Shown here piece after piece: positions 3,288 through 26,280 of a DNA stretch of 27,343 nucleotides. Numbering within the stretch: the stretch's first letter is position 1; each line of letters opens with the position of its first letter. Under the pieces are notes generated by a model. That model saw only the letters and a list, made by a program, of their open reading frames with translations, was not told the DNA's origin and did not search any database. Location: positions 1-27,343 of IMG/VR virus record IMGVR_UViG_3300027896_000183, one strand, 5' to 3'. This DNA is from a virus. Made by a program: the position numbers and the translations under genes.

Positions 3288-3509
3288 ATGGCACATGGTA
3301 AGGTGAAATGGTTTTCGAATCAAAAGGGATATGGGTTCATCAGCCAGGACAGCGGTAAAGACGTGTTTGTGCACTTCAGCGGTATCGTGTCTGAAGGGTA
3401 CAAGAGCCTGAAAGAAGGCCAGGAAGTCGAATTCGAAGTTGTCCAGGGCACCAAGGGTGAACAGGCGGCAAACGTAAAGATCCTCAGCGAAGGAGTTAAG
3501 GCAGAATGA
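3288..3509 (+). CDS. Cold-shock domain protein (CspA family)
   Basis: A 73-residue single OB-fold cold-shock protein, full length for the family. The two nucleic-acid-binding motifs are intact: RNP1 as KGYGFI at residues 13-18 and RNP2 as VFVHF at 26-30, with the conserved GKVKWF start at 4-9. CspA proteins bind single-stranded RNA and DNA and melt RNA structure, acting as RNA chaperones or antiterminators. A strong ribosome site (aaaaggagaag) precedes the ATG. The last codon overlaps the next start in an ATGA arrangement. A phage-borne copy among structural genes may aid phage mRNA translation or antitermination; that role is inferred. Family assignment is secure. Confidence 0.96.
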
Positions 3510-7603: not shown

Positions 7604-8029
7604 ATGCCAAAATACACGAACTCAGGAGCAACAGTAGTATCGATCGGAAGTTTGAGGCTGGAACCTGGTGAATCAAAGAAGACTTTGGAGTTTGTTCCTG
7701 GTTCGCTGCCGGTTGGTGTAACGCTGGACAGTGTTCTTCCGGTATTCACTCCGGTCATTCTGTCCCAGAAGATGACAACAGCAACAACGGTCACGGTCCC
7801 GGATACGTATGTCGATTCTCTTTCCGGTGCGACAATCAACCTGACCGGGAACTACCTGATCACCATATATTCTACCGGTGAAACAACGGTGCAGTTGAAT
7901 GGCCAGGGTGTATCCAGATTGCTTGGCCAGGAACAGTATTATGAGGTCAGATGCTTGAGCAGGATTGTGAATACATTGGTAATTACCCCGGCGTCCGGTA
8001 CGGTCTACGTTACCGTAGAAATGGTATAG
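7604..8029 (+). CDS. Beta-rich putative virion decoration or head protein
   Basis: A 141-residue protein rich in Thr, Val and Gly with alternating beta-strand patterns and no enzyme motif. A strong ribosome site (agaggagaatga) precedes the ATG. Its N-terminal 40 residues (tNSG...LRLEPGESK...LPVGVTL) resemble the 68-residue protein at 20715 (TNTSD...LHPGEKM...LPKGAKL), suggesting a shared small beta domain. It sits directly upstream of the prohead protease and capsid gene. Composition and place suggest a capsid decoration or head-fibre protein, but I recognise no specific family. Confidence 0.7.
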   Translation: MPKYTNSGATVVSIGSLRLEPGESKKTLEFVPGSLPVGVTLDSVLPVFTPVILSQKMTTATTVTVPDTYVDSLSGATINLTGNYLITIYSTGETTVQLNGQGVSRLLGQEQYYEVRCLSRIVNTLVITPASGTVYVTVEMV

Positions 8030-8040
8030 GAGAGGATAAA

Positions 8041-10146
8041 ATGGCAAAAACACAAATCATAGAATCATTCATCACTCAGGGTAAAATTCTCGAGCAAGCG
8101 GGAACGAACGATGCGATCTTGTGTCGAGCCAAATACCAGATCTGCTCGATCGGGGAAAAGAACCGGAACAACAGAGTTTATGAGAAGGCGGTCTGGGACA
8201 AGGTTCTTGCTGACCCTGACATCTCAGCCAAGCTGAAGAATAAATCTCTGTTCTTCCACGCAGAGCACCCAACGACGACTCAGAGCAATACCGAGAAAGT
8301 CGCCGGTGTGGTCACGAATATGGAACTGAGCGAGAACAAAGTCTACGCCATCATGGAAGTGCTTGATACTCCGTACGGCCGGATCGTAGACACGCTGCTT
8401 CGCGCCGGCTGCGGGATCGGCGTTTCAACCCGCGCTGACGGCGAACTTGAGGAAGCGCTTGATGAGGCTGGTGGTAAATACCAGCGCGTTATACCGGAAT
8501 CATACAGATTTGTAACGATCGACTTTACCGCGGATCCCAGCACCTTTGGATCTGAACTGCCACTGACTGTGGAACGGGATGTGACTAAGGTGATCAAGGG
8601 CGGCCTGGACGACAGCAAACTGGACCGGGACTTCGCGACAGTCCTGCTTGAGACGATGCATTCTCCTGAGGCTGTCTCATTGCTGGAATCGATCAAGCAC
8701 GACAAGCATCACGCTGGCTGCACATGCAAAGCATCAGAGAAGAAATGCGCATCCGGATGTCCGCATGCTCTTGAGAAAGAGGTCGAGTCGGATGGCGGCT
8801 CGAGTAGTATAAATGAAAAAGGCGGTGAGTGTGTCCGCTGCGGCGCTACTGCCGACCATCTTTATGCTGAGAAATACTGTGCAAAATGTGCCGGGAAGGT
8901 AGACAGTATCAATCGGGAACTTGATAAAGACGGGACTGGCCAAGACGCTGAGATGAATGAAGTGATCAAGAAGGTCGGAAGCAAATGGCAGGTTCAGTCT
9001 CACAAAGGCAAAAATCTCGGCACTTATGGCAGTGAAGCAGAGGCCAAGAAGAGACTCGGCCAGGTGGAGTTCTTCAAGCACAAGAACGAGAAGTACACGA
9101 CCAGTTCTGACAAGTCCGGCCAACCGGCGAACGCCAAGGCTGCATCCCGGGATGTCAGACGATCAGCAGCGCGGAATAAGATCAAGGTTACAGAGCAAGA
9201 GGTTCAGACCTGTCCGAAATGCGGCGACACTTTCAATGCTATCCGGCAAGGTTCAAATCCACACAGATGCAAATACGATTACCTGGCTACGGAAGGAGTT
9301 ATGGACGGCATGCATACAGGCGAAAAGGCTCAGAATTTCTTAATGGACAATTGGGATAAATTCATCGATCGCGACGACGCGGTTGTAAACCTGACGCGGA
9401 TATTCAAAATCGGAGAATCAGATGCTAAGAAACTTGTTGATTCATTGGAGAAGTCTAAAGGCAAAATCTCAGCAGCCGACGGCGCAATGAGCAACGAGAA
9501 GGCGTTACCTTCGGGCATCAACCCTCAATTGGACGAGATGTCAAAGAGGCTTGCGTCTGTTACTGCTGAGAGAAATCAACTGGTGGAGAACTATGGAAAA
9601 GACGCCATGGCTTTCACCAATCAAATAAAGGAACTCAAAGGGCAGATCGAGAAAGTCTATGGGCTTGTGCGGACTCACGAAGGTGCGATCATCCAGAAGG
9701 ATAAGGATATCGCAGCCTTGAAAGAACAAGTGGAGAAGTCAACTGAAGATAAAAGAGTTCTTGAAACAACTCACAAGCAGGCTGTCAAGCATATTCAAGA
9801 GAAGCAAGCAGCCGAAGTCAAGCGAATCACTGAGGAACGAGAGCAGGAAATAACGAAATTGAAGGAGTCCCAAGGTCGGGCACTCATTAAATTTTATGTT
9901 GGCGCTAAGACAAAGAGCATGGGACTTAGCCTACCTGAGTCGGTTCTAACACTTTTAGAATCCTGCAAAACGGTAGACGAAGTTGATGCTATGGTTAGGA
10001 AAAGTCAAAACGCTCTAAGGGAACACCTGGTACAATCTGCCGGCGTGGTATCCGAGATCGTTATTGAGTCACAATCTGACCCTAATCCGGTACTGGCTGA
10101 CATACGTAACAAAGTTGGTATTGCACTGAAGCATTTTGGAATCTAA
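8041..10146 (+). CDS. Prohead protease (T4 gp21-like) fused to zinc modules and scaffold-like coiled coil
   Basis: A 701-residue fusion. Residues 1-170 are a T4 gp21/herpesvirus-fold prohead protease: the NRNNRVY start (41-47), the catalytic-type His in AEHP (H76), the serine motif GIGVST (S129) and the following RFVTIDFTADPS block (156-167). T4 gp21 is only about 212 residues. Beyond it come a Cys-rich knot (227-240), a zinc ribbon (C264/C267/C280/C283), a small domain with KWQVQSHKGKNLGTY (315-329) found in other phage virion proteins, a CPKC...C finger (391-410), and a long coiled coil (about 497-612) resembling a gp22-type scaffold. I start at the ATG with AGGAGAGG before it rather than 30 codons upstream inside the previous gene. 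It sits immediately upstream of the capsid gene, as in T4. It should mature the prohead and remove its own core. Confidence 0.88.
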   Translation: MAKTQIIESFITQGKILEQAGTNDAILCRAKYQICSIGEKNRNNRVYEKAVWDKVLADPDISAKLKNKSLFFHAEHPTTTQSNTEKVAGVVTNMELSENKVYAIMEVLDTPYGRIVDTLLRAGCGIGVSTRADGELEEALDEAGGKYQRVIPESYRFVTIDFTADPSTFGSELPLTVERDVTKVIKGGLDDSKLDRDFATVLLETMHSPEAVSLLESIKHDKHHAGCTCKASEKKCASGCPHALEKEVESDGGSSSINEKGGECVRCGATADHLYAEKYCAKCAGKVDSINRELDKDGTGQDAEMNEVIKKVGSKWQVQSHKGKNLGTYGSEAEAKKRLGQVEFFKHKNEKYTTSSDKSGQPANAKAASRDVRRSAARNKIKVTEQEVQTCPKCGDTFNAIRQGSNPHRCKYDYLATEGVMDGMHTGEKAQNFLMDNWDKFIDRDDAVVNLTRIFKIGESDAKKLVDSLEKSKGKISAADGAMSNEKALPSGINPQLDEMSKRLASVTAERNQLVENYGKDAMAFTNQIKELKGQIEKVYGLVRTHEGAIIQKDKDIAALKEQVEKSTEDKRVLETTHKQAVKHIQEKQAAEVKRITEEREQEITKLKESQGRALIKFYVGAKTKSMGLSLPESVLTLLESCKTVDEVDAMVRKSQNALREHLVQSAGVVSEIVIESQSDPNPVLADIRNKVGIALKHFGI

Positions 10147-10172: not shown

Positions 10173-11639
10173 ATGTCAAAAGGTATTGAGAGTTTGGTAG
10201 AGTCGCGCTTGGCCGCTATGGCACAAGATCGCGATCGTCTTACCAAGGCATGGGGACCTCATATCAGTTCAGTAGAGTCTTATTTTGCAAAACAGGGTAA
10301 GAGCATCACTGAAAATGATAAGAGGAATATCGCCCGCTGTCTTGAGAACGCCCTGTTAGAAGGCGGCATCAAATCCAGATCAAGCATCTTTGAAACGACC
10401 GACTCCAGCGCGATCCAGTTCTTAGGGATCCAGTTGCCGGTTATCGCGGCCCTGCTTCCCAGTTTGGTTCTTAACAAACTGGCAGTTACTCAGGCCCTCG
10501 ATCGTAGATCCGGTGCTGTGTTTTATCTGGACGTGAAATACGGATCGAACAAAGGTTCTGTCTCTGCAGCGCAGAGCATGATCGCAGCAACGACTGGCCA
10601 TAACGCGACCATCGGTGGCCGTGAATATGCGTCCGTCCGCGTCAAGAATGAAGTTGTCACAGGATCAACCTCACCGTTTACCCTCGGGTATTACCCGGTG
10701 GTTTCTGGTTCGACGGTTATCGTGGACAATGTGACCGGCAACACGTTGACAGTTGTTTCCTCAAGCGGTGGTGTGGATGTTCTTGCTTCCTCACTGTCTG
10801 CTGGACACACTGGAACCGTCACGCTGGCAACCGGTGTTGTAACAATCGCTGGTGGTGGTTTAAGCAACGCAGGTACCGTCTCCTACCTGTATGATTGGCA
10901 GACCGGTGGCGCTGGTGGCGCAACTACAGCCAACGTCCCTGAAGTTAACATCGCGGTTACCGCTTCGACGATCACAGCCGAAGACTTCCCGCTCAAAGCA
11001 TTGTTTACTCTTGGTGCTGCAATCGACCTCGAGAAAGCACATGGCTTGAATCTGGAAGACGAGCTCGTGAAATATCTCGGCGGCGAAGTGAAATTCACCA
11101 TGGACCACCTGGGCATCGATCTGATCAACAATGCCTCCCAGGGTAGTGGTGCTGCAACTTCACCTGGTATCTACACTGCTACGCCGTCCGTTGGCGAAGC
11201 ATGGGTCTGGAAAAAGTATCAGTTCATCGACTTCGTGGAAAAAGCGAACGTCGCCATCATCCAGAAGACATTGCGTGCAGTTTGCAATTTCTTGGTTGTT
11301 GGTAACGATGCTGCAAGGTTGATCCGTCAGTTGGCACCGAACTTCGTGCCTGCGGCTGGATTGAACACCTTGGTACCCACCGGTCCTTACGAACTGGGTA
11401 CTTTGGACGGCCGTCTCGTGATTCACGATCCGTTACTCGGGAATACCGAGATCCTGTTCGGTTTCAAAGGCGACAACTACCTGTTCGCAGGTTTCTTGTT
11501 CGCTCCTTACATCCCGTTATTCGCAACGCCGACTCTGGTTACTGCAGACCTGAAAGCTCAGAAGGGCTTCCTCGCATCCGCAGGTTACAAAGTCGTGAAC
11601 GCGGGTATGTATACTCACGGAAATATTACCATAGTCTAA
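10173..11639 (+). CDS. Major capsid protein (T4 gp23-like, HK97 fold)
   Basis: A 488-residue capsid protein with a strong AAGGAG ribosome site. Hallmarks of the gp23 family are the block LPSLVLNKLAVTQALDRRSG (94-113) followed by AVFYLDVKYG, and the block FPLKALFTLGAAIDLEKAHG (271-290) leading into an E-loop/spine-helix-like region. The N-terminus is a helical propeptide; LLE|GG at residues 61-64 is a good prohead-protease site, close to the T4 gp23 cleavage after Glu65. Residues about 159-241 are a Thr/Val/Gly-rich beta insert before the conserved middle, likely a surface domain, related to one in the next gene. It follows the protease gene directly and precedes a strong hairpin. The product assembles the icosahedral shell. 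Confidence 0.93.
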   Translation: MSKGIESLVESRLAAMAQDRDRLTKAWGPHISSVESYFAKQGKSITENDKRNIARCLENALLEGGIKSRSSIFETTDSSAIQFLGIQLPVIAALLPSLVLNKLAVTQALDRRSGAVFYLDVKYGSNKGSVSAAQSMIAATTGHNATIGGREYASVRVKNEVVTGSTSPFTLGYYPVVSGSTVIVDNVTGNTLTVVSSSGGVDVLASSLSAGHTGTVTLATGVVTIAGGGLSNAGTVSYLYDWQTGGAGGATTANVPEVNIAVTASTITAEDFPLKALFTLGAAIDLEKAHGLNLEDELVKYLGGEVKFTMDHLGIDLINNASQGSGAATSPGIYTATPSVGEAWVWKKYQFIDFVEKANVAIIQKTLRAVCNFLVVGNDAARLIRQLAPNFVPAAGLNTLVPTGPYELGTLDGRLVIHDPLLGNTEILFGFKGDNYLFAGFLFAPYIPLFATPTLVTADLKAQKGFLASAGYKVVNAGMYTHGNITIV

Positions 11640-12683: not shown

Positions 12684-13579
12684 TGAATTCATTGATCGAG
12701 CACATACTCAACGAGATCACGTTCAACAATCTCCGGGTCAAGCAGAGATCGATCGGCAAACTGTTCCCGAGTTTTGGCGCCCGGGTAAAGGCTGTGGCTT
12801 CGAACGGCGGGGTGTCCATGAAGGAGCAGATGCCGGAATACTGGCATTTTGAGGTCGCATCCGGAACAAAGCCAGGTGTCAAATACGATGTCTATGTCCA
12901 GTTCCTGAATCTGGAAGAGATGATCAGGAAATACGCTGGACAGAGACGCTTGTGGAATCAGGCTCAGGATAACGTAAATTACCGGCTTTTGGCTCAGGAA
13001 GTCTTAAACCATGTTGACATGCGGACCAGTTGCTCCTGCCCGGCTACCTTATATTGGGGCCAGGATTACATCAGGACGCAGCGGGACGCGCAGTTCGGCC
13101 GACAGGAAGACAGGGCACCCAATATCCGCAATCCGCGGCAGTACGGGGCTTATTGCAAGCACGGGCAGTTGGTTTTCGATGTGCTGCCCTTATATACGAC
13201 CACTTTTGCTTCATTCTTGAAGAAATATTGGGCTGGCGAAGTCAGCGACACATTCGAATTGGCCAAGGAGCAGATGCCGGCACCCGGGATGGGCAAGCCT
13301 ACACGCGGTGAGCAGGAAGAGTTCCCATTTGCAGCACGCGCAGGCAGAGAAACACCTGCGGCTGAAGAGAAGCCTGAGCAGATGGAATTCGAATTTCCTG
13401 AAGAAGAGGCTCCGCCTGAAGCAGAAGTTCCAGGGCCGCAGCGGGCCGCACCGGCTACCAAGGGTGCTGGCGCGATACTGCCGAAGGCAACGACACCGGC
13501 AGCCAAGAAACTTGGGATTGAACAAGAAGCCCGGCCAAAGGATCAGGGAAAGAAAGGAAAATACAAGCCAAATGAGTGA
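12683..13579 (+). CDS. SWIM-type zinc-finger virion protein
   Basis: A 298-residue protein beginning at the ATG that overlaps the upstream stop (TAATG), with CAGGAG upstream; an earlier in-frame ATG at 12656 is less likely. Residues about 112-180 contain C117-S-C119-P and C158-K-H160, fitting the CxC...CxH pattern of SWIM zinc fingers, here followed by LPLYTTTFASFL. Similar CSCP/CKH proteins occur in large tailed phages beside neck genes; I infer a virion or packaging role. From about residue 203 the chain is Pro/Glu/Ala rich and probably disordered, ending Lys rich. An ATGAGTGA overlap joins it to the next gene. Confidence 0.75.
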   Translation: MNSLIEHILNEITFNNLRVKQRSIGKLFPSFGARVKAVASNGGVSMKEQMPEYWHFEVASGTKPGVKYDVYVQFLNLEEMIRKYAGQRRLWNQAQDNVNYRLLAQEVLNHVDMRTSCSCPATLYWGQDYIRTQRDAQFGRQEDRAPNIRNPRQYGAYCKHGQLVFDVLPLYTTTFASFLKKYWAGEVSDTFELAKEQMPAPGMGKPTRGEQEEFPFAARAGRETPAAEEKPEQMEFEFPEEEAPPEAEVPGPQRAAPATKGAGAILPKATTPAAKKLGIEQEARPKDQGKKGKYKPNE

Positions 13580-14471
13580 TCTTGAGCGTATTGCAGACAT
13601 GATCTTTTCGAAGATAAATGAAGACGGCGATGCAACACCCGGGATGGTAGGGGTGGCAAAGACAACTGGAAGCCCATCAGTTGAGTATCTGCCGGGTAAC
13701 TTTACGCACATGCGCAATGTGTTGAATTCTCTTTCCACTGTCAAAAATAAGTGGAAGTTGGATGTCCTGGAGAAGAACGACAAGTATCACGTTATGTTCG
13801 AAGATGCTTTCAACGTGATAGTGCCTAAGTTTGCCTATGCCGAGTTCAATGCTAAGGTGTTACCGGTTATAGGTGTGACGGAGGCGGATCTGACTGGGAT
13901 AATAAATGAAGCGCGGTCTGCGGAGATCCATGGTTTATACGACCGGCTCGCCCATGTCCTGACGATTGACCTGCGCGAAAACAGGCAGATCAAGCGGACA
14001 TTGGTACTGATGAACTACTGGCTTACCGTATTCAAGAACTCCAAGTTCCTGCCTATGAGCGGCCAGGTTGCGATTCAGTTGAACACGTACGACAAGAGTA
14101 TCAGGGAACTGGTGGATAGGATCCAGAATATCCATTCAGACGATGTTGGGAATCTGGAGATGTTGATCAAAACAATACAGGATGACAGACCTCTGAATGC
14201 ATTTGAACCATTCGCAGAATACGATTATCTGGTGGGCTGCAGGATTCAGAGCGAGCACGGTGGGGCAGTACTGATTCTGGAATTGACTGTGAACTTAGGC
14301 ATGGTTGCGACTCAGTCAATTTACATCGAATCACAGGATGTGCTGGATGAGCTCGAAGGCTACAGGACCGTGAAGGTTCTGAAGGATATGGCTTTTCCAG
14401 TAGGAGAAATGTTCCAACCATCGATATTTAACAATATCAGAGATATTATCGATGGGGAAACCGGAGCGTAA
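13572..14471 (+). CDS. Putative virion protein of unknown function
   Basis: A 299-residue protein. I choose the ATG that overlaps the end of the preceding gene by eight bases, because upstream in this frame the sequence is an out-of-frame reading of the SWIM gene's basic tail. It opens with an amphipathic helix (LERIADMIFSKI), then a Gly/Pro-rich loop, then a mixed alpha/beta body with a helical stretch at about 115-200 and beta strands at about 215-255. No catalytic motif is seen. Position between neck candidates and the exported-protein pair suggests a virion component. Confidence 0.7.
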   Translation: MSDLERIADMIFSKINEDGDATPGMVGVAKTTGSPSVEYLPGNFTHMRNVLNSLSTVKNKWKLDVLEKNDKYHVMFEDAFNVIVPKFAYAEFNAKVLPVIGVTEADLTGIINEARSAEIHGLYDRLAHVLTIDLRENRQIKRTLVLMNYWLTVFKNSKFLPMSGQVAIQLNTYDKSIRELVDRIQNIHSDDVGNLEMLIKTIQDDRPLNAFEPFAEYDYLVGCRIQSEHGGAVLILELTVNLGMVATQSIYIESQDVLDELEGYRTVKVLKDMAFPVGEMFQPSIFNNIRDIIDGETGA

Positions 14472-14488: not shown

Positions 14489-15448
14489 ATGAAGCGGTTT
14501 ATATGTTTGGTAGTGGCTGCAATGTTCTTGATGGGCCAAGCGGGTATCGCGAAAGCGTTCACCTTCGATGTGAAGAAGATGACAGCGACAGTTGAATATC
14601 AGAATCTGGACAAAGACATTGATTCTGTAGGTGCCGCGGCCAACTATGGCAAATCTTGGACAGACACAGTTGATGGCGACAGCAACTGGATGTATTCCAT
14701 CGGTGGCAACATTGCATACGAGATCAACGATGTGAATATGAAGGGCATGATGGCCAATATCGGCTACAACTTAAGCGACACTCTCCAACCGTACATCCTA
14801 TTAGGGACTATGGATCTGGATTTTACCCAGAAACTTGTTGGGTCATATAATGAGAACGATGACGGAGATCTCTACGGTGGATCTATGGATCTGCTTCAAT
14901 CTCACTTTGATTCTCAGATGTTTACCTACGGCTTTGGTGCCAAAGGTAACTTGATGGACTTCAGCAAGACTGATGACAAAGGCGTATCTGACGGCCTCGG
15001 TATCAAGGTCGGGTATGACTTTCGTTATTATATGGGTGCAAACGGACAAAATGACGGCATTGTGGCTCTGCCGACCAGCGACTATGGAATGGTGGTCGAT
15101 AACCGTACCAAGGCCAATTTCAACGAAATGGACGCAAGCCTTATAGCGAGCAAAGCGTTCAAGATGAAGAAAGTGGTCCAGACGGTTACGCCGTATGTCG
15201 GATACAAATTCAGCAAAGTCAATCTGAATATAAAGAACAGCGTGAATATCCCGCTTAAATACCACGAAGGCAAACATGGTATTTATCAGGAAGGTATCAA
15301 TGTTTCTGAAGAGCAGAATCTGACGAGCAGCACTCAAAATGCATTAGTGGGTGTTGGCACCAAGATCAATGCTAACTGGTCTGCATCTGCCGGCGCGGTA
15401 ATCGGGCAGGATAAAGGCTGGGTAGCAAGCGTGACCTACTCGTTCTAA
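14489..15448 (+). CDS. Outer-membrane beta-barrel protein with signal peptide
   Basis: A 319-residue exported protein. The N-terminus is a classical Sec signal peptide: MKR, a hydrophobic core through residue 18, and a likely AKA|FTF cut after residue 23. The mature part shows repeated amphipathic beta strands with Gly and aromatic girdle residues (MKGMMANIGYNLS, TPYVGYKFSKVNLNI) and ends in ASVTYSF with a terminal Phe, the signature recognised by the BAM machinery. It is therefore probably inserted in the outer membrane of a diderm host. A very strong ribosome site (aaaggaggag) drives it. Lambda Lom is a precedent for phage-coded outer-membrane proteins; superinfection exclusion or surface alteration is inferred. 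Confidence 0.85.
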   Translation: MKRFICLVVAAMFLMGQAGIAKAFTFDVKKMTATVEYQNLDKDIDSVGAAANYGKSWTDTVDGDSNWMYSIGGNIAYEINDVNMKGMMANIGYNLSDTLQPYILLGTMDLDFTQKLVGSYNENDDGDLYGGSMDLLQSHFDSQMFTYGFGAKGNLMDFSKTDDKGVSDGLGIKVGYDFRYYMGANGQNDGIVALPTSDYGMVVDNRTKANFNEMDASLIASKAFKMKKVVQTVTPYVGYKFSKVNLNIKNSVNIPLKYHEGKHGIYQEGINVSEEQNLTSSTQNALVGVGTKINANWSASAGAVIGQDKGWVASVTYSF

Positions 15449-15524
15449 GTCAAGCGCCCACCAGATAAGCGTTTATTGACTTATAGAGTAACGATTATAA
15501 ACAGGACCAAATACGGAGAACGAA

Positions 15525-15908
15525 ATGAGAAAGACAGCGATCACAATATTGTTAGTGCTGGGAATCGTAACAGTGGCAATGGCGAAATCAGTGACCCTTA
15601 TGTGGACCGCGCCTGCAGATGACAAAGGCCTGCCCACCGAAGGTCCGGTAACTTCGTACATCCTTGGTTACTCGAACCAGACGATTACTGAAGCCAACTT
15701 CGCAAACTGCACCCGGCTGGCTACAGGGACACCGAAAGCGATCAATGCAACTGAAACATATACGTATGATCTGCCGGACAATAAAGTATATTTCTTTGCA
15801 GTGAAATCGGTAGACAAGGCCGGGAACGTATCACCGTTGTCAAACGTTCCTACGCTGGATTTTTTCTACCCGACCAATGTTACGGACTTACGGGCTTCCA
15901 ATCCTTAA
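15525..15908 (+). CDS. Secreted single fibronectin type III domain protein
   Basis: A 127-residue protein with a Sec signal peptide (MRKT plus a hydrophobic stretch; likely cut AMA|KS after residue 20). Mature residues about 23-107 form one fibronectin type III domain: SVTLMWTAPADD, then TSYILGY, and the late strand VYFFAVKSVDKAGNVS. No lipobox or membrane anchor follows, so it should be periplasmic or released. It lies 76 bases after the barrel gene, with a GGAGA ribosome site, and the pair probably acts together at the cell envelope. FN3 domains are common in phage surface proteins, but a free-standing exported one is less usual. Confidence 0.85.
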   Translation: MRKTAITILLVLGIVTVAMAKSVTLMWTAPADDKGLPTEGPVTSYILGYSNQTITEANFANCTRLATGTPKAINATETYTYDLPDNKVYFFAVKSVDKAGNVSPLSNVPTLDFFYPTNVTDLRASNP

Positions 15909-15926
15909 TGTGCCACCTGTGGCATT
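15907..15926 (+). terminator. Short hairpin after the FN3 gene
   Basis: TGCCA (15911-15915) pairs with TGGCA (15920-15924) around CCTG, with flanking AA/TT adding two pairs across a bulge. A T-rich stretch (ttggttgttt) follows. It begins at the stop codon of the exported FN3 gene. A weak terminator is plausible. Confidence 0.4.
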
Positions 15927-15950
15927 GGTTGTTTCCAAAGCGATAGAATT

Positions 15951-15968
15951 AAAAGGTCTCCTCAGACC
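15951..15968 (+). promoter_or_regulatory. Leader hairpin with CCUC loop before the 15987 gene
   Basis: GGTCT (15955-15959) and AGACC (15964-15968) form a five-pair hairpin with the loop CCTC. The hairpin ends seven bases before the ribosome site AGGAGG, whose GAGG is complementary to the loop. The 18-base element is the inverted copy of the one at 16547-16567. Confidence 0.5.
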
Positions 15969-15986
15969 GATAATAGGAGGATAGAA

Positions 15987-16544
15987 ATGAGCGAGCAAGA
16001 CATGGTAAAAGAGGCAGTAGCCCAAGCCGAAAAAGAGGCTAGAGACAAGCAGATAGGTGAAGTAAAGAAGATCGTAACAAAGACGTTGGAAAAACTCGAT
16101 GAAGTCCGGAAGGACATCAAGAAGTTGCAGGAGGAAGAACGAGTCCTAAAGATGGATATCGACGACCTCAAGGATGGCAGGCTGGACCGGATATCAGAGA
16201 GACAGGAAAAGGATCCAGAGGCAAAGAAAGTATCGGTGGTCCTGATCATCAAAGAGAAAGAAGTGATCAGGGAAGTCAGCCCCTGGTACTTCCCGTACCA
16301 AGTAATCTGGCAGACGCCATATGTGCCAGTGTACAGGCAAACACCGCTGATCGAAAACCGAAAAACGCTGTTCGGGGATGTATACGGTGTTGGTCTTGAC
16401 AATTCGGTTGATCTATCAAACGGCGCATCATTCTCAGCGACGAATACTGGTGGGGCCGGTTTGATGACGATTACATGCTCAGCGGCTAAGGATGCGAGCA
16501 TAGGAACATATGATGTCAACGGACACATTGTTCATTTAAGGTAA
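15987..16544 (+). CDS. Coiled-coil protein with C-terminal beta domain, putative virion protein
   Basis: A 185-residue protein with a strong AGGAGG ribosome site. Residues 1-75 are a continuous highly charged coiled coil (EKLDEVRKDIKKLQEEERV). A hydrophobic strand VSVVLIIKEKEVI (about 82-94) is followed by an aromatic patch SPWYFPYQVIWQ and a Gly/Ser/Thr-rich C-terminal domain (about 125-185) ending TYDVNGHIVHLR. There is no signal peptide. The shape, a helical stalk with a beta head, fits a trimeric structural protein, but I do not recognise a named family. Leader hairpins lie on both sides of the gene. Confidence 0.7.
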   Translation: MSEQDMVKEAVAQAEKEARDKQIGEVKKIVTKTLEKLDEVRKDIKKLQEEERVLKMDIDDLKDGRLDRISERQEKDPEAKKVSVVLIIKEKEVIREVSPWYFPYQVIWQTPYVPVYRQTPLIENRKTLFGDVYGVGLDNSVDLSNGASFSATNTGGAGLMTITCSAAKDASIGTYDVNGHIVHLR

Positions 16545-16546
16545 AC

Positions 16547-16567
16547 AAAAGGTCTGAGGAGACTTTT
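16547..16567 (+). promoter_or_regulatory. Leader hairpin with GAGG loop before the 16586 gene
   Basis: AAAAGGTCT (16547-16555) pairs with AGACTTTT (16560-16567), one bulged G, around the loop GAGG. It sits between the stop of one gene and the AAGGAGG ribosome site of the next. Reverse-complemented it nearly equals the element at 15951-15968, so the two could also pair with each other across the intervening gene. Confidence 0.5.
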
Positions 16568-16585: not shown

Positions 16586-18256
16586 ATGTCGGAGAATATG
16601 GTACACAATTTGTACAAATTCATTAAAGAAGGGGTGACGCCCGAACAGATGTTTGCAGCGACAGCAGAAGCATTTTGCGAGAAAGTAGTGACCGACGAGG
16701 CAATGCTCAGAGAAAATGCCGAGATGGAATCGAACCAAACTTTCATGCTCAATCACCTGAACGAAGTCGCCCCAGAAGGCTGGGAAGGCACTGTGAAAGG
16801 CATGAAGAAGCACAAGAAGATCTCCAACCCCTGGGCATTGGCGCATTACATGAAGGGCAAAGGTTACAAACCGCATGCTTCCGAGGGCAAGCTTCCGGCC
16901 GACTTGGCAAATATCCAGAAGCCTGATCAGTACATCCAGGATCTGAAAGAGGATGAGAAGAAAGAAAATATCGACGACGCAGCGAATCCGGCAATCAAGA
17001 CAGACAACGCCGGCGTAACACCCGCACCTGAGTTAACCAAGGTTTCCCAGGAGATGGACAAAGCGACGCCTACGGTCGATAAACTGACCCAGGACAAGAA
17101 CGGTATCGCGCCTGAAGTCGACGCCAAAGCACCTGCGGCCAAGGAAGAGAAGAAGATCGAACCGAAGGTCACCGATGTGAAGAAAGAGAACGAAGGCAAG
17201 TTGCCGGCAGCGATCGCAAACATCCAGAAACCTGGCGAATACATTCAGAATCTCGCGGAAGAAGCAGAGAGAGTCATCGCGGATGGCATCTCTGAAGAGA
17301 ACGTGGCCAAGGATCTCGCTTCCCGTCATAAGGGCGAAGCGGTGCAGAATCCATCAACCAAGCTCTGGAAAGTAGTCTCAGTCGTGAATCCTTCGATCGC
17401 GACAGCAATGCCGGCGACATCAGCGGCAACGACTGTTCCTGCGGTTGAGAAAAAGGTCAACACTTGCAGCAAATGCTCCAAAGAGAAATGCGAATGTCTC
17501 AAGGAAGAGAAGACCACTGAGCCCGCAACAGCAGCACCGGCTGGTGTTCCTGAAGTAAAGGACAAGGAAGATGTGAACGTCCCTCTGAAGACGATGGCTA
17601 CTGATAAATCAAACGCATTAGCCAGTGATGCTCAGGTGATGGATCCGGGTACTACGAAGACGACCAAACAGGAACAGCCTATGGCGCAAGCGCCGGCTCC
17701 TTCTGGTCAGGTAATCGATCCGGGTACGACAAGCACAGTGAAACAAGCGCAGGCTGCGAATGCCGGTGCAGACAACAAGACGACCGAGCCCAAGGGCACT
17801 ACTGTTTCCAGTAAGGTCCCTGAAGTAAGCGCTACTACAAGCGCGGTCCCGGACGTGAAATCGGCAAAGCCGGATGCGTTGGTCAAGGAAGATGTCGATG
17901 TCACGATCAGATCAGACGGCAAAGAAGTGAACGTTGTCTCAGCGGGTGGTGCAACAACCATAACCACTCAGGATACAGCGGCTGTGCCGATTTCTACTGA
18001 AACTCCGCTGCTTGGGGCAGAGACTCCAGCAGAAGAGGAAGAAGAGGAAGAACTGGAACTCGAGGAAGAGCCGGAACTTTCCGATGAGGAAGCGCTGGAA
18101 ATGGCGGAACGGTTGATGGTAGCAGAGCATCTCGGTAAACTCGACGAGAAGAACATGAGCGCCAAGCAGAAAAAGTTCGTCGAAGACATGAAGGCTAAAA
18201 AGTTCTCGAAGAAGAACACAGCGAAAATCGAGAAAAAGAAAAAGGAGATAAAGTAG
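16586..18256 (+). CDS. Repeat-rich low-complexity protein, putative head core protein
   Basis: A 556-residue protein with an AAGGAGG ribosome site. The N-terminus (1-45) is helical. Residues 62-97 hold a module seen in other phage proteins, with PEGWEGTVKGMKKHKKI then NPWALAHYMKGKGYKPH. Two 24-residue repeats (EGKLPA..ANIQKP..YIQ) begin at residues 100 and 203, and a (M/I)DPGTT repeat occurs twice around 351-385. One Cys cluster, CSKCSKEKCEC, could bind metal. Long Ala/Pro/Thr/Lys-rich linkers are probably disordered. The C-terminal part is very acidic (about 477-502) and then Lys-rich. A core or scaffolding role is inferred from charge and modularity. Confidence 0.68.
   Translation: MSENMVHNLYKFIKEGVTPEQMFAATAEAFCEKVVTDEAMLRENAEMESNQTFMLNHLNEVAPEGWEGTVKGMKKHKKISNPWALAHYMKGKGYKPHASEGKLPADLANIQKPDQYIQDLKEDEKKENIDDAANPAIKTDNAGVTPAPELTKVSQEMDKATPTVDKLTQDKNGIAPEVDAKAPAAKEEKKIEPKVTDVKKENEGKLPAAIANIQKPGEYIQNLAEEAERVIADGISEENVAKDLASRHKGEAVQNPSTKLWKVVSVVNPSIATAMPATSAATTVPAVEKKVNTCSKCSKEKCECLKEEKTTEPATAAPAGVPEVKDKEDVNVPLKTMATDKSNALASDAQVMDPGTTKTTKQEQPMAQAPAPSGQVIDPGTTSTVKQAQAANAGADNKTTEPKGTTVSSKVPEVSATTSAVPDVKSAKPDALVKEDVDVTIRSDGKEVNVVSAGGATTITTQDTAAVPISTETPLLGAETPAEEEEEEELELEEEPELSDEEALEMAERLMVAEHLGKLDEKNMSAKQKKFVEDMKAKKFSKKNTAKIEKKKKEIK
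16883..16954 (+). repeat. Coding repeat, copy 1 (EGKLPA..ANIQKP)
   Basis: First of two 24-residue coding repeats in the 556-residue protein (residues 100-123). The shared core is EGKLPA-x-x-ANIQKP-x-x-YIQ-x-L. It directly follows the NPWALAHYMKGKGYKPH module. Confidence 0.8.
17192..17263 (+). repeat. Coding repeat, copy 2 (EGKLPA..ANIQKP)
   Basis: Second copy, residues 203-226, starting 309 bases after copy 1. It differs at about a third of positions and at many silent sites, so the duplication is not recent. It is followed by a helical domain beginning ERVIADGISEENVAKDL. Confidence 0.8.
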
Positions 18257-21912: not shown

Positions 21913-23526
21913 ATGAGTTTTTACCTGAGTCCAGGTGTTTACACCAAAGAAATAAATTTAAGCAACATCGTACCGACAGTCGCAACGACTACCGCTGCGC
22001 TTGTAGGATATTCACCAAAAGGTGATACAGTTCATATCAGGTTGATGACCAATACTCAGCAGTTCATCGCTGAATACGGCGAGCCGGTATTGGGTGAGCC
22101 TTTCCACTATGCCGCGTTGGCGTTCTTGGAGACCGGCAATCAACTTTGGTGCTATCGTGTACAGAACGGCGCATTATACGGTGGTATCAAGATCAAGACA
22201 TCAACAAGTCTTCAGGGCAACGCCTCAATCTCTGCGGGCGTAGCATCGCCTGACTTTGTATCGATCTCTGGCGAGGACAACCTGTTCAACGTCTACGGCG
22301 TGAATCCTGGCGTCTGGAACAACGGCCTGGGAGTTCAGGTTATCCGCACGACTGCAAACGATGCGATCTATGTGTTCCAGATCGACGTGTACGCAAAAGA
22401 TACGACCGGGACATTCCAGAAGGTTGAATCCTGGACAGTATCCAGAAAGCACCAGATCGATGGATATGGCAGACAGCAATACATGGAGACCGTCATCAAT
22501 GGATTCAGCAGTTACATAGTGGTTGCGGATAGCGCACTGGCGGATTCTACTCTGCCTAAAGCACAGACCAGCACGCTGCCGTTTGCGATGGGCGCTGATG
22601 GATCTGCGATCGCAGCCTCTCATTTGATGGCCGGCTGGGATATGTTCGCGAATCCTGAAGAGGTCGACATCAGACTTCTGGTCGAACCCGGGTTCTTCTC
22701 GACTTCAGTACAGGAGAAGATGAAGGAGATCGCGGAATCACGGAAAGACTGCATGGCTATCCTGAACATGGATCCCGCGCAGACCACATCCACCGCTTCA
22801 ATGATCACATGGAGAAACAGCACTCAGAATCTGAACTCCAGTTACGTAGCGCTGTATGCGCCTATGGTCCAGACATACGATCAGTGGAATTCGACATTGG
22901 TTGTCCTGCCAGGATCCGGCTATATTGCCGCGCAGTATGCGTACAACGATTACATCCGGAACGTCTGGAACGCTCCTGCTGGTTTGAACAGAGGCGTCCT
23001 GAACGTCCTGAATATCTGCGACCAGAATGGCAAACGGTTAGCATTCTCGCAGGGTGACAGAGACTCGCTGTATTCTGCGCAGATCAACCCGTTGCAGATC
23101 TGGCCGGGATCCGGAAATGTTATCTGGGGCCAGAAAACAGAAACCACAACGCCGTCCGCTTTGGACAGGGTCAATGTGCGTAGGTTGCTCATTATCCTTG
23201 AGAAAGCAATGGCGATATCATTAAGATCGTTCGTGTTCGAGCCGAATGATCCGAATACACGGTTCAGAGTCACCGCAATGCTGGATACGTATCTTGATAC
23301 ACTCAGTGGCGCTGGTGCATTCGAAACATCGTCCGCTGATACGAAGGGATATCAGGTAGTTTGCGACGAGACCAACAACACACCGGCGGTCATCGATCAG
23401 AACGAACTTCACGTTGATGTGTTCGTGAAACCGATCAAGATCGCGGAATTCATCCAGTTGCAGGTTATTGTCACGACAACCGGTGCTAACTTCAACGAGC
23501 TCATAGCAAGAGGTTTCAACCTGTAA
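21913..23526 (+). CDS. Tail sheath protein (T4 gp18-like)
   Basis: A 537-residue contractile tail sheath protein with a strong AAGGAGG ribosome site. The N-terminus FYLSPGVYTKEIN is diagnostic, followed by the TTTAALVGYSPKGDTV strand block and TNTQQFIAEYGEP. The C-terminal domain carries the typical AMAISLRSFVFEPNDPNTRF helix-strand and ends with ELHVDVFVKPIKIAEFIQLQ, the strand that links neighbouring sheath subunits. Contraction of the sheath drives the tube into the cell. The tube gene follows after 31 bases, the standard myovirus order. Sheath identity is secure. Confidence 0.96.
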   Translation: MSFYLSPGVYTKEINLSNIVPTVATTTAALVGYSPKGDTVHIRLMTNTQQFIAEYGEPVLGEPFHYAALAFLETGNQLWCYRVQNGALYGGIKIKTSTSLQGNASISAGVASPDFVSISGEDNLFNVYGVNPGVWNNGLGVQVIRTTANDAIYVFQIDVYAKDTTGTFQKVESWTVSRKHQIDGYGRQQYMETVINGFSSYIVVADSALADSTLPKAQTSTLPFAMGADGSAIAASHLMAGWDMFANPEEVDIRLLVEPGFFSTSVQEKMKEIAESRKDCMAILNMDPAQTTSTASMITWRNSTQNLNSSYVALYAPMVQTYDQWNSTLVVLPGSGYIAAQYAYNDYIRNVWNAPAGLNRGVLNVLNICDQNGKRLAFSQGDRDSLYSAQINPLQIWPGSGNVIWGQKTETTTPSALDRVNVRRLLIILEKAMAISLRSFVFEPNDPNTRFRVTAMLDTYLDTLSGAGAFETSSADTKGYQVVCDETNNTPAVIDQNELHVDVFVKPIKIAEFIQLQVIVTTTGANFNELIARGFNL

Positions 23527-23557: not shown

Positions 23558-24076
23558 ATGCCGCAAATGGGAATTGACAGTTTGAAGACGAACTTAACAA
23601 ATCCTGCAAGGCCGTATCTGTGGGAAGTAGTAGTGCCGGTTCCGATCGGCGGTGGTGATTCTACTACCTATACGTTAAGGGCTCAGTCTACCGAGATCCC
23701 TGGCCGCAGCAATCCGCAGATCAAGATACCGTTCAAACAGACCGCGGGTATCGCTATAGCCGGGAAATTGGCCTACGATCAGACCTGGTCAGTTACATTC
23801 ATCGAAGGTGAAGACAAGAAAGTCTTCGATGCGATCCAGGGATGGCAGCAGTCGATCGTGAACAACTCGACTGGTATCGGGATTGGTGATCCATTTTACA
23901 AGACCGACGTGTATCTGACTACGATCACCGTGGCCGGAGACATCTACATGAAGATCAAGCTCAAGGGTGCATGGGTACAGAACATTGGCAAAGTTGCAGT
24001 CGATTATGCAGGCGGAGACGGAACGATCAAGTATCCTGTCACCTTCTCATTCGACAACTGGGAAGACGTGTCCTAA
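23558..24076 (+). CDS. Tail tube protein (T4 gp19-like)
   Basis: A 172-residue tail tube subunit, close to T4 gp19 in length (163). Typical features are the N-terminal NPARPYLWEVVVPVP strand, LRAQSTEIPGRSNPQI with the conserved small-residue turn, the YDQTWSVTFIEGEDKKVFDA strand-helix (about 76-95), and the C-terminal beta strand YPVTFSFDNWE. Hexamer rings of this protein stack into the tube inside the sheath. A strong AAGGAGG ribosome site and position after the sheath gene agree with high expression. Confidence 0.92.
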   Translation: MPQMGIDSLKTNLTNPARPYLWEVVVPVPIGGGDSTTYTLRAQSTEIPGRSNPQIKIPFKQTAGIAIAGKLAYDQTWSVTFIEGEDKKVFDAIQGWQQSIVNNSTGIGIGDPFYKTDVYLTTITVAGDIYMKIKLKGAWVQNIGKVAVDYAGGDGTIKYPVTFSFDNWEDVS

Positions 24077-24088
24077 TCGGAGTAAACT

Positions 24089-24631
24089 ATGCCAGGACTT
24101 AGTGTACCTGTTGATTGGATCCTAGCAAAAGCACGTTTCCAGAGGAACTATCTCTGGGACGTGCTCTTGCCGGACATTAGCCCGACTATTGGTGGAATAC
24201 CGACATTCGGGCTGATCGGGTTTGGTTTAGCGCAACTTGTCCGCGCTGTGCAGTTCGGTGACTACAGCATGAACGACGCGAATACGATGCGTGTTGGCCC
24301 GTATCAGGCTAATTTTGCTGGGCTGCTGACGGTCGACAAGATCCGTATTACCTTTGTAAAAACAATGCCGGATGCTGTCTCAGCGTACATCAATGCGTGG
24401 AAAAATCTGATCGTTGACAGCCAGGGTTTGTTCCAGCCGAAAGCAAAGTATCAAAAGACTATGTACGTGCGGTTCCTGGACTCAACAGGAATTGCCTTGG
24501 GGCGGTATAAGTTGATCGGGTGTTTCCCGACGACATTCCCTAAATACAACCTGGACTATGAGAACAACAACGTGACGACTGTGCAGGTGGAGTTTGCAGT
24601 GGACAAGATCGAATATGAGTTTTTCGGATAG
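24089..24631 (+). CDS. Tail-tube paralogue, tube initiator-like (gp54/gp19 superfamily)
   Basis: A 180-residue protein that looks like a diverged copy of the tube gene: FQRNYLWDVLLPD near its start matches the tube protein's RPYLWEVVVP, AVQFGDYSMND replaces the STEIPGRSN turn, and it has the same middle strand-helix (DKIRITFVKTMPDAVSAYIN) and final beta strand (TVQVEFAVDKIEYEF). In T4, gp19 and the tube-initiator gp54 are structurally related and differ in this way. I infer a baseplate-proximal or terminal ring. A second tube subunit is an alternative. The ribosome site is GGAG. The homing endonuclease follows immediately. Confidence 0.75.
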   Translation: MPGLSVPVDWILAKARFQRNYLWDVLLPDISPTIGGIPTFGLIGFGLAQLVRAVQFGDYSMNDANTMRVGPYQANFAGLLTVDKIRITFVKTMPDAVSAYINAWKNLIVDSQGLFQPKAKYQKTMYVRFLDSTGIALGRYKLIGCFPTTFPKYNLDYENNNVTTVQVEFAVDKIEYEFFG

Positions 24632-24638
24632 GATATGT

Positions 24639-25247
24639 ATGAAATACGATAAAATTATCGATTACAAAATATGCGCATGTGGATGTGGCGAGATTATTTA
24701 TATTTCTGCTTATTATCCAGCAAAGCGTTTTGTTAATGGACATAACTGGTTGGGTGTTAAAAGACCACCTCGATCTGTTGAGTATAGGAAGAATATCAGC
24801 ATGGCACATTTAGGTAAAAAACGATCGCAGATTTTCTGTGACCATATGCGTAAAGTTAGTGCTGGTAAGCACCATTCTATCGAAACAAAGCAGAAAATGT
24901 CTGCAGCGCATAAGGGATCAAAGAGTCATCTTTGGGAAGGGGGTAAGACTTCTCTGGCTACGTGTATCCGGCATTTATTGGAAATGAAACAGTGGCGTGT
25001 ATCTATCTTTGAGCGTGATAACTATACTTGTATAAAATGTGGAAAACGTGGTGGAGAACTTCATCCGCATCATATAAAGAAGTTTTCTAATATCTTAGCC
25101 GATTTCTTACATGAATATTCTCAGTTTAGTCCATTAGAGGATAAAGAGACGTTAGTAAGATTAGCCATGACTTATAAACCCTTTTGGGAGATTAGCAACG
25201 GTACGACATTGTGCCGAAACTGCCATATGCTAACATTTAAACTATGA
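24639..25247 (+). mobile_element. Free-standing HNH homing endonuclease gene
   Basis: A 202-residue endonuclease, an inserted selfish gene. Start chosen at MKYDKII with AGGAT upstream. The N-terminus has a CACGCG metal-like knuckle (12-17), two NUMOD3-like helices follow (YRKNISMAHLGKK, about 49-61, and KQKMSAAHKGSKSH, about 84-97), then the HNH nuclease: FERDNYTCIKCG (C131, C134), LHPHHI (H144/H145) and LCRNCH (C192, C195). Base composition is visibly more AT-rich than in flanking genes, and codon choice differs, consistent with recent transfer. It sits between the tube paralogue and the next tail gene, and its end overlaps the following ATG by four bases. No intron boundary is visible in either neighbour, so it is free-standing. 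Confidence 0.93.
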
Positions 25248-25542: not shown

Positions 25543-26280
25543 ATGCAAGAGAACTATGTAACAGTGAAGTTACCTTCCAAATGCTTGGTCTATCCGGATA
25601 TAGACTTGGCAAAGAACCCCGATGCAATCCAGATCCGGACCTTCAAGGGCCGCGATGAGAAGTTGATCGCAGAACTCAGCAACGAGAACTTCGAGAAAAA
25701 GTTTCTGACTGTGCTTCACGGTGTTTTGAAGGGTATTGATCCTGTAAAACTGACGCTGGGAGACCGCCTGTATCTGGTAGTCTGGGAGACTATTAACTCG
25801 TACTCAAAAATGTTCAGTGTTGATTTTGAGTGCGAACATTGTTGGCAAAAGAATACGTTTGATGTTGATCTAACCAAACTGGAAATTATTGAACTTCCTG
25901 ATACATATAGAGAACCCTATGAGTTGAAGTTACCTGTATCCGGGCAACTGGTCAAATGCCGGATGTTGCGGGTAGAGGATGTTCTGAAGGTAAACGAGTT
26001 GGATAAGGCCGGCCAGAATGTTTGGTTGTACAGATACGCGCTTTCATTGGTGAATGATAAAGGTATCTGGGACAACGTGGACTTTCTGGAGAACCTCTCA
26101 ACCAAAGACCTTATGGTTATCCGTGCCTTTCATAATAAGTTTGAACATGGTCTAAAGATGGAAGCAGCATATGAGTGTCCGAAGTGCGGAGGTACCGGTG
26201 TGATGCCGGTTCCCTTTCGACTTGAGATGCTTCTTCCGTATGGGAAAAAACTTGAACGATATACTGGAGATGCAGTTTGA
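25543..26280 (+). CDS. Tail-assembly chaperone / gp26-like baseplate protein with zinc ribbon
   Basis: A 245-residue protein with a good AAAGGAGAGG ribosome site. The opening (VKLPSKCLVYPDIDLAKNPD...IQIRTFKGRDEKLIAEL) and length fit the T4 gp26/baseplate-hub assembly group (the T4_baseplate family, as I recall it) that precedes tape-measure genes in many myoviruses. Two Cys pairs, C97/C100 (CEHC) and C212/C215 (CPKC), frame the molecule and could form a split zinc ribbon. Immediately downstream a second reading frame overlaps its end in the +1 register, the arrangement of recoded tail-assembly chaperones (G/GT). Function as a chaperone for the tape measure is inferred from order and overlap. 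Confidence 0.72.
   Translation: MQENYVTVKLPSKCLVYPDIDLAKNPDAIQIRTFKGRDEKLIAELSNENFEKKFLTVLHGVLKGIDPVKLTLGDRLYLVVWETINSYSKMFSVDFECEHCWQKNTFDVDLTKLEIIELPDTYREPYELKLPVSGQLVKCRMLRVEDVLKVNELDKAGQNVWLYRYALSLVNDKGIWDNVDFLENLSTKDLMVIRAFHNKFEHGLKMEAAYECPKCGGTGVMPVPFRLEMLLPYGKKLERYTGDAV

Follow-up and report, generated by a model that had tools for sequence, protein, structure and literature searches.

A predicted outer-membrane porin gene at a hypervariable site among the late genes of a T4-type phage

Here we present an analysis of a 27-kb virus record of environmental metagenome origin (27,343 nucleotides, the whole of which is called the window), a late block of a T4-type myophage in which two adjacent genes for predicted exported proteins sit among the virion genes. 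By far the best reading of the first product is an outer-membrane barrel, predicted from its profile relatives to belong to a family of cellular porins, OMP_b-brl / chlamydial-MOMP-like in type; the second appears to be an FN3 domain of the secreted type known from bacterial cells. We favour, tentatively, a reading in which a captured porin is displayed in the host outer membrane, where a receptor would be diluted, replaced or masked, with the FN3 protein as the product of a separate accessory gene.

The features of the window are listed in Table 1. The barrel and FN3 genes are read in the same direction, between an upstream virion-region gene and a coiled-coil gene whose order is kept in relatives. 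An earlier note on this DNA had described two ORFs here, a Sec-exported barrel ending in Phe and a lone secreted FN3 protein, as an interruption of the virion genes. Sequence and profile evidence confirms both ORFs where the note had put them, and the pair does lie between virion genes (capsid at 10173, sheath at 21913) with order-conserved flanks. A signal-peptide heuristic run on the window picked only these two ORFs on the plus strand. Both genes have the codon use and GC content of the rest of the window, and thus do not have the look of fresh arrivals. An assembly chimera at the slot was ruled out by the conserved flanks, the same strand and the matching composition.

Table 1. Features of the window, with positions counted from its first letter
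Feature	Position	Strand	Remarks
Prohead protease	7951-10146		
Gp23-type major capsid	10173-11639		E 5e-30
Upstream slot flank, virion-region gene	13308..14471	+	true start probably near 13578
Putative outer-membrane beta-barrel porin homologue, 319 aa	14489..15448	+	signal peptide, profile homology
76-nt gap before FN3	15449..15524	+	TATAAACA at 15496-15503
Predicted secreted single FN3-domain protein, 127 aa	15525..15908	+	signal peptide, FN3 homologues
Two small hairpins after FN3	15910..15968	+	GTGCCACCTGTGGCAT and GGTCTCCTCAGACC
Downstream slot flank, coiled coil	15987..16544	+	homologues in relatives
Conserved acidic late gene	16586..18256	+	homologues in relatives
Tail sheath	21913-23526		
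Tail tubes	at 23558 and 24089		
Baseplate-hub-like gene	at 25543		

Elsewhere in the window, a NUMOD3/HNH-type homing endonuclease gene with a GC content of 38% and atypical codons (24594-25247) stands between the tail-tube genes and those that follow. In the 954-aa protein encoded at 5-2869, a motif resembling '(E)KDIFKGAS' occurs about five times, in several cases after 'ES(V)NE'. The small accessory proteins of one relative (L006) have a comparable start, 'LLEQ(E)DIFKPP', whereas in other relatives such proteins begin with leaders of the MKKLLExxLKE kind. These motifs and leaders resemble signals, on packaged internal proteins, for capsid targeting or for the prohead protease. A cold-shock-protein gene recurs in these T4-like phages (3288-3509 in the window, 1283-1480 in L019 and 4260-4478 in L008), and in L017 (9114-10962) the capsid gene is apparently split into two ORFs by an insertion, perhaps an intron or homing element.

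The window protein is read as a barrel mainly on the basis of profile-profile homology to cellular outer-membrane porins, which extends over all 319 residues: with hhalign, the two T4-like phage barrels (that of the window and a homologue described below) matched a cellular-only alignment at a probability of 98.9 and E=1e-17 over residues 1-319. The sequence has both a Sec signal peptide (MKRFICLVVAAMFLMGQAGIAKA, about residues 1-23) and a C-terminal aromatic beta-signal, ending in ...VASVTYSF, with Phe last and Tyr at -3 in the outer-membrane barrel pattern. Pfam OMP_b-brl matched at E=1.8e-5 and 25.4 bits, below the curated cut-off of 28.7, and the alternating-strand score exceeded that of 296 of 300 shuffles, a home-made and weak heuristic that serves as support only. 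Of the signal-peptide and barrel predictions that the earlier note had proposed as a check, the export signals, the strand heuristic and the porin homology agree with a barrel; the AlphaFold model of the protein, built from few sequences, failed at a pLDDT of 28. Chlam_OMP (PF01308) gave no direct match to the window protein, and the T4-like phage pair alone gave none to MOMP or Chlam_OMP; cellular intermediates do match. No Pfam match to Ail_Lom was obtained at E<=1, and when the barrel was used as a single query sequence neither IMG/VR nor the GTDB genomes gave a match.

The cellular side of the family was searched in genomes of many phyla, chosen via an FN3 motif scan. A profile of the two phage barrels matched 3 of 384 Omnitrophota genomes at first, in full-length exported barrels of 254-278 aa that have landmarks in common with the phage proteins (Y.L.D.L..Y..LG, FAYGFG.KG, F.PY.G.KYS and TY.F). 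With a five-sequence profile, matches rose to 122 of 334 Omnitrophota genomes, together with 13 of 247 from Desulfobacterota and 12 of 295 from Elusimicrobiota; the family is thus common in the first phylum and rarer in the other two, at rates biased toward Omnitrophota because three of the profile's rows come from that phylum. A wider family profile matched the solved major outer membrane porin 9oq7 at E=2e-16, and OmpA too. Among the Omnitrophota members, one gave a Chlam_OMP match at 4.5e-15. In an Elusimicrobiota locus (L101, 1006-2370) the same barrel is fused to an OmpA peptidoglycan-binding domain. Two Omnitrophota porin genes (L114, 6211-7373; L117, 6900-8073) have a divergent XRE-type regulator upstream and an ORF6N-like gene nearby, surroundings that make a regulated or mobile unit possible.

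The FN3 protein consists of a signal peptide (MRKTAITILLVLGIVTVAMA, about residues 1-20) and a single domain, modelled by AlphaFold with five strands at a pLDDT of 64.5. Pfam fn3 matched it at E=5e-4 and 20.7 bits, below the cut-off of 25. By tblastn, cellular FN3 domains matched at E values to 3e-15 and 36-45% identity, the best of them in Myxococcota, Zixibacteriota, Paenibacillus and others. A Zixibacteriota protein (L066, 147 aa) has the same build, with a signal peptide, a single TAPGDD-type FN3 domain and a short 'P..NITDLAAS' tail, and differs in being cellular and only about 40% identical. The 'NVTDLRASNP' tail raised the idea that the window gene is a truncated multi-FN3 gene; this was rejected, as the lone Zixibacteriota protein is intact and has the same tail. 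Searches for a phage homologue with tblastn, peptide patterns and a motif, IMG/VR scans included, came back empty. The protein may bind surface polymers or the wall. FN3 domains do occur in phage tail proteins, and the window protein matches PHROG 31 at 1e-5; with both genes lying among virion genes, the two products might be taken for virion components in spite of their signal peptides. We give this very little credence, since the Sec signals would take the proteins out of the cytoplasm, where T4-type virions are assembled, and the FN3 protein is closest to secreted bacterial ones.

Comparison of the window with 17 IMG/VR loci carrying related capsids defined the site. In the stretches examined of the three nearest relatives (capsid identity 83, 83 and 69%), neither the barrel nor the FN3 gene is present and the flank genes are kept. 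Homologues of the upstream flank gene are 69, 55 and 62% identical in L002, L003 and L004; those of the coiled-coil flank gene are 67% in L003, 55% in L004 and 45% in L008, with none in L002. The L002 slot is empty, the upstream flank gene being followed directly by the homologue of the acidic late gene. In L003, one of the nearest relatives, the slot codes for a coiled-coil membrane protein and for a 2H phosphoesterase (15917-16495; 2_5_RNA_ligase2 at 1.5e-8, Acb1 at 5e-5 and under cut-off), the latter an Acb1-like anti-CBASS candidate and typical accessory cargo. A nucleotidyltransferase/DUF5662 protein takes the place in L004, and unrelated small genes in the remaining relatives. With the PF13505 and PF00041 profiles, the relatives yielded no barrel and one weak FN3 match, to an unrelated virion-type protein. 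The barrel/FN3 site is a hypervariable accessory slot, and its occupants, in the manner of morons and accessory cassettes, are missing from close relatives at the same site between conserved flanks. No window promoter or terminator for a moron-type cassette stands out above chance.

Searching the full records of relatives revealed a full-length barrel homologue (33% identity, E 5e-24) in a 107-kb T4-like relative, G004, and the two barrels form one clade (100/99). In G004 the gene follows the terminase and portal genes and precedes the capsid region, with a cold-shock-protein gene directly upstream; the site is not that of the window, and the barrel gene thus sits at different places within the structural region. 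G004 has no FN3 match. A scan for the motif YG[FL]GAKGN returned the G004 barrel as the only family match, the rest being unrelated proteins, and neither the barrel nor the FN3 protein was found in INPHARED phages. These results bear on the partnership of barrel and FN3 that the earlier note had proposed. A dedicated pair, in which the FN3 protein would decorate the barrel either from outside or from the periplasmic side, would suit genes that are adjacent, codirectional and both exported. Nevertheless, co-occurrence in other phages, the note's own test of the pair, is absent: G004, the lambda-like phages described below, the nearest relatives and the IMG/VR motif scan offer no case, and because no related phage has both genes the pair is rejected on present evidence. 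The lone FN3 protein is also a known cellular architecture, and its gene has a separate ribosome site and a 76-nt gap between it and the barrel gene; on the whole we regard a dedicated pair as very unlikely.

A profile scan of IMG/VR found the porin family in two contigs of an unrelated lambda-like phage, L112 (record G973, 43.8 kb) and L113, which come from different metagenomes and are 99.8% identical over 9.3 kb. According to PHROGs, the barrel gene is placed between the large terminase (phrog_15) and the head-tail adaptor (phrog_118), followed by the portal (phrog_21), and no FN3 gene neighbours it. The full G973 record has tape-measure-like and large J-like tail genes (named by eye), a primase and a large serine recombinase, and the phage is thus probably temperate. 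The search for host homologues of the barrel urged by the earlier note had led to the cellular porin family. For the L112 barrel, a gene in the Omnitrophota genome G281 shows 89% identity (227/254) and a second Omnitrophota gene, in G242, shows 78%. DNA similarity to the G281 contig covers 957 bp, from about 84 nt upstream to 100 nt downstream of the gene, the flanks being common to the phage and the host gene. Between the two copies dN is 0.061 and dS 0.394 (dN/dS about 0.15), which indicates purifying selection on the lambda-like copy. Over the rest of the G281 contig the sole other likeness to the phage is between serine recombinases, at 23%. Since a serine recombinase lies upstream of the G281 porin gene, that copy could itself sit on a mobile element, whereas the position of the G242 copy amid housekeeping genes argues for a chromosomal gene. 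The large serine recombinase of the lambda-like phage (L124, 1975-3672) is distantly similar to the one on the G281 porin contig.

In the tree, the T4-like barrel pair groups with the G281/G242/L112 clade at moderate support (90/87). The family stands in three phage contexts and two unrelated phage lineages, and the lambda-like phage shows an independent capture of it. Its presence in both a T4-like relative and an unrelated lambda-like phage suggests that phages repeatedly capture this porin family to alter the surface of the infected cell. A hypervariable slot and patchy occurrence would also be expected of passenger genes caught by recombination and devoid of phage function, an explanation that we find improbable: the reading frames are intact and their codon use matches the window, the barrel is conserved over its full length between two phages at 33% identity, and the lambda-like copy is both under purifying selection and a case of repeated capture.

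The earlier note had credited both genes with strong ribosome sites, which holds for the barrel (aaaggaggagtacagATG) and not for FN3, whose site is only moderate (cggagaacgaaATG). In the gap before FN3, TATAAACA is a possible T4-late-like box, not enriched over chance; a T4-type late promoter was rejected, since TATAAATA-like sites are no more frequent than chance. The two hairpins after FN3 are possible terminator or processing sites; taken together, sites of the terminator kind do not exceed chance. Inverted repeats of 17 nt (AAAGGTCTCCTCAGACC / GGTCTGAGGAGACTTTT, at 15952-15968 and 16551-16567) bracket the coiled-coil flank gene, and each is a small hairpin too. We infer late expression of the barrel and FN3 genes from their position in the late block, and the same is implied by the finding of the barrel gene, in three phage contexts, within modules of virion genes.

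Late timing bears on the possibility that the barrel is a nutrient porin or maintains the envelope, supporting uptake or outer-membrane integrity during the shutdown of host synthesis, without exclusion. The cellular family is indeed porin-like, and the capture of an intact gene under selection by a phage that is probably temperate also fits a benefit to host fitness; however, the virion-module sites imply expression so late that little uptake would be gained, an argument from position only, and we hold this role to be rather unlikely. A role in release, in which the barrel, the FN3 protein or both weaken the envelope at lysis, could draw on the wall-active candidate found in another variable spot of the relatives (a 3D-domain protein, L009), but neither protein is enzymatic or spanin-like and the porin family is structural, making such a role quite improbable.

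In the reading that we favour, the barrel would be a captured bacterial porin, carried as an accessory gene in the hypervariable slot of the late operon. During infection Sec would export it and the Bam machinery of the host would fold it, so that it came to be displayed in the outer membrane of the infected cell, where it would most likely dilute, replace or mask the porin that serves incoming phages as receptor, resulting in superinfection exclusion. The FN3 protein would be a separate cellular-type accessory product, secreted to the periplasm or cell surface. The host, the display in the outer membrane, the late timing and the exclusion function are the parts of this model that we infer. 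A change in the receptor landscape is the most likely purpose, because porins are common phage receptors and the porin of phage PA-2 replaces that of its host. The host is probably an Omnitrophota-like Gram-negative bacterium, though a search of 384 Omnitrophota genomes gave no homologue of the capsid gene. The T4-like phage barrels have long branches and do not closely copy any known host protein, so that mimicry of a receptor by the window barrel is at most a possibility, and it counts against the explanation that the nearest relatives do without the gene. What stands of the host-surface remodelling suggested in the earlier note is the phage-coded barrel, with its cellular porin family and three phage contexts, as the leading reading; the FN3 partnership does not. 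A possible if doubtful generalization is that unrelated phages of Omnitrophota-type bacteria independently capture the major porin of their hosts into virion modules and, late in infection, display it again so as to swap or saturate the receptor, FN3 being a second surface modifier in the present case.

To our knowledge, there is next to no information on the phages of Omnitrophota and similar uncultured phyla, or on their receptors. A phage copy of a host porin, seen in the one case with 89% identity to an Omnitrophota gene, points to the host and nominates a receptor. Phage-borne outer-membrane proteins are already known; the new element is phage carriage of the MOMP-like porin family, which was not found in the characterised-phage collections searched and of which a partial literature search gave no description. 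Chlamydial MOMP and related porins (PF01308, PDB 9oq7) are sequence-profile relatives of the barrel family, matched by the phage barrels only through intermediate cellular members. The lambdoid phage PA-2 carries a porin of host type, Lc, which changes the set of porins made by the host and blocks the receptor. It is very close in idea to the lambda-like case, although it is an enterobacterial general trimeric porin, of a different family and with different hosts. Our findings suggest that porin capture, known from that one enterobacterial lambdoid phage, recurs in another porin family and in T4-type phages. The exclusion proteins of the Cor / Llp type are likewise exported phage proteins that block outer-membrane receptors; they are small lipoproteins, whereas the window barrel and FN3 protein both lack a lipobox cysteine at the cleavage region. 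Cor, for example, inactivates FhuA (PMC11436027). Finally, lom and bor are accessory lambda genes that affect lysogen fitness (PMC3430580). Lom, like the window barrel, is a phage-coded outer-membrane barrel among late genes. It is a member of the Ail/OmpX family with a role in lysogens, whereas the window barrel is MOMP-like and carried by a T4-type phage, and by sequence Lom is an analogue of the window barrel rather than a relative.
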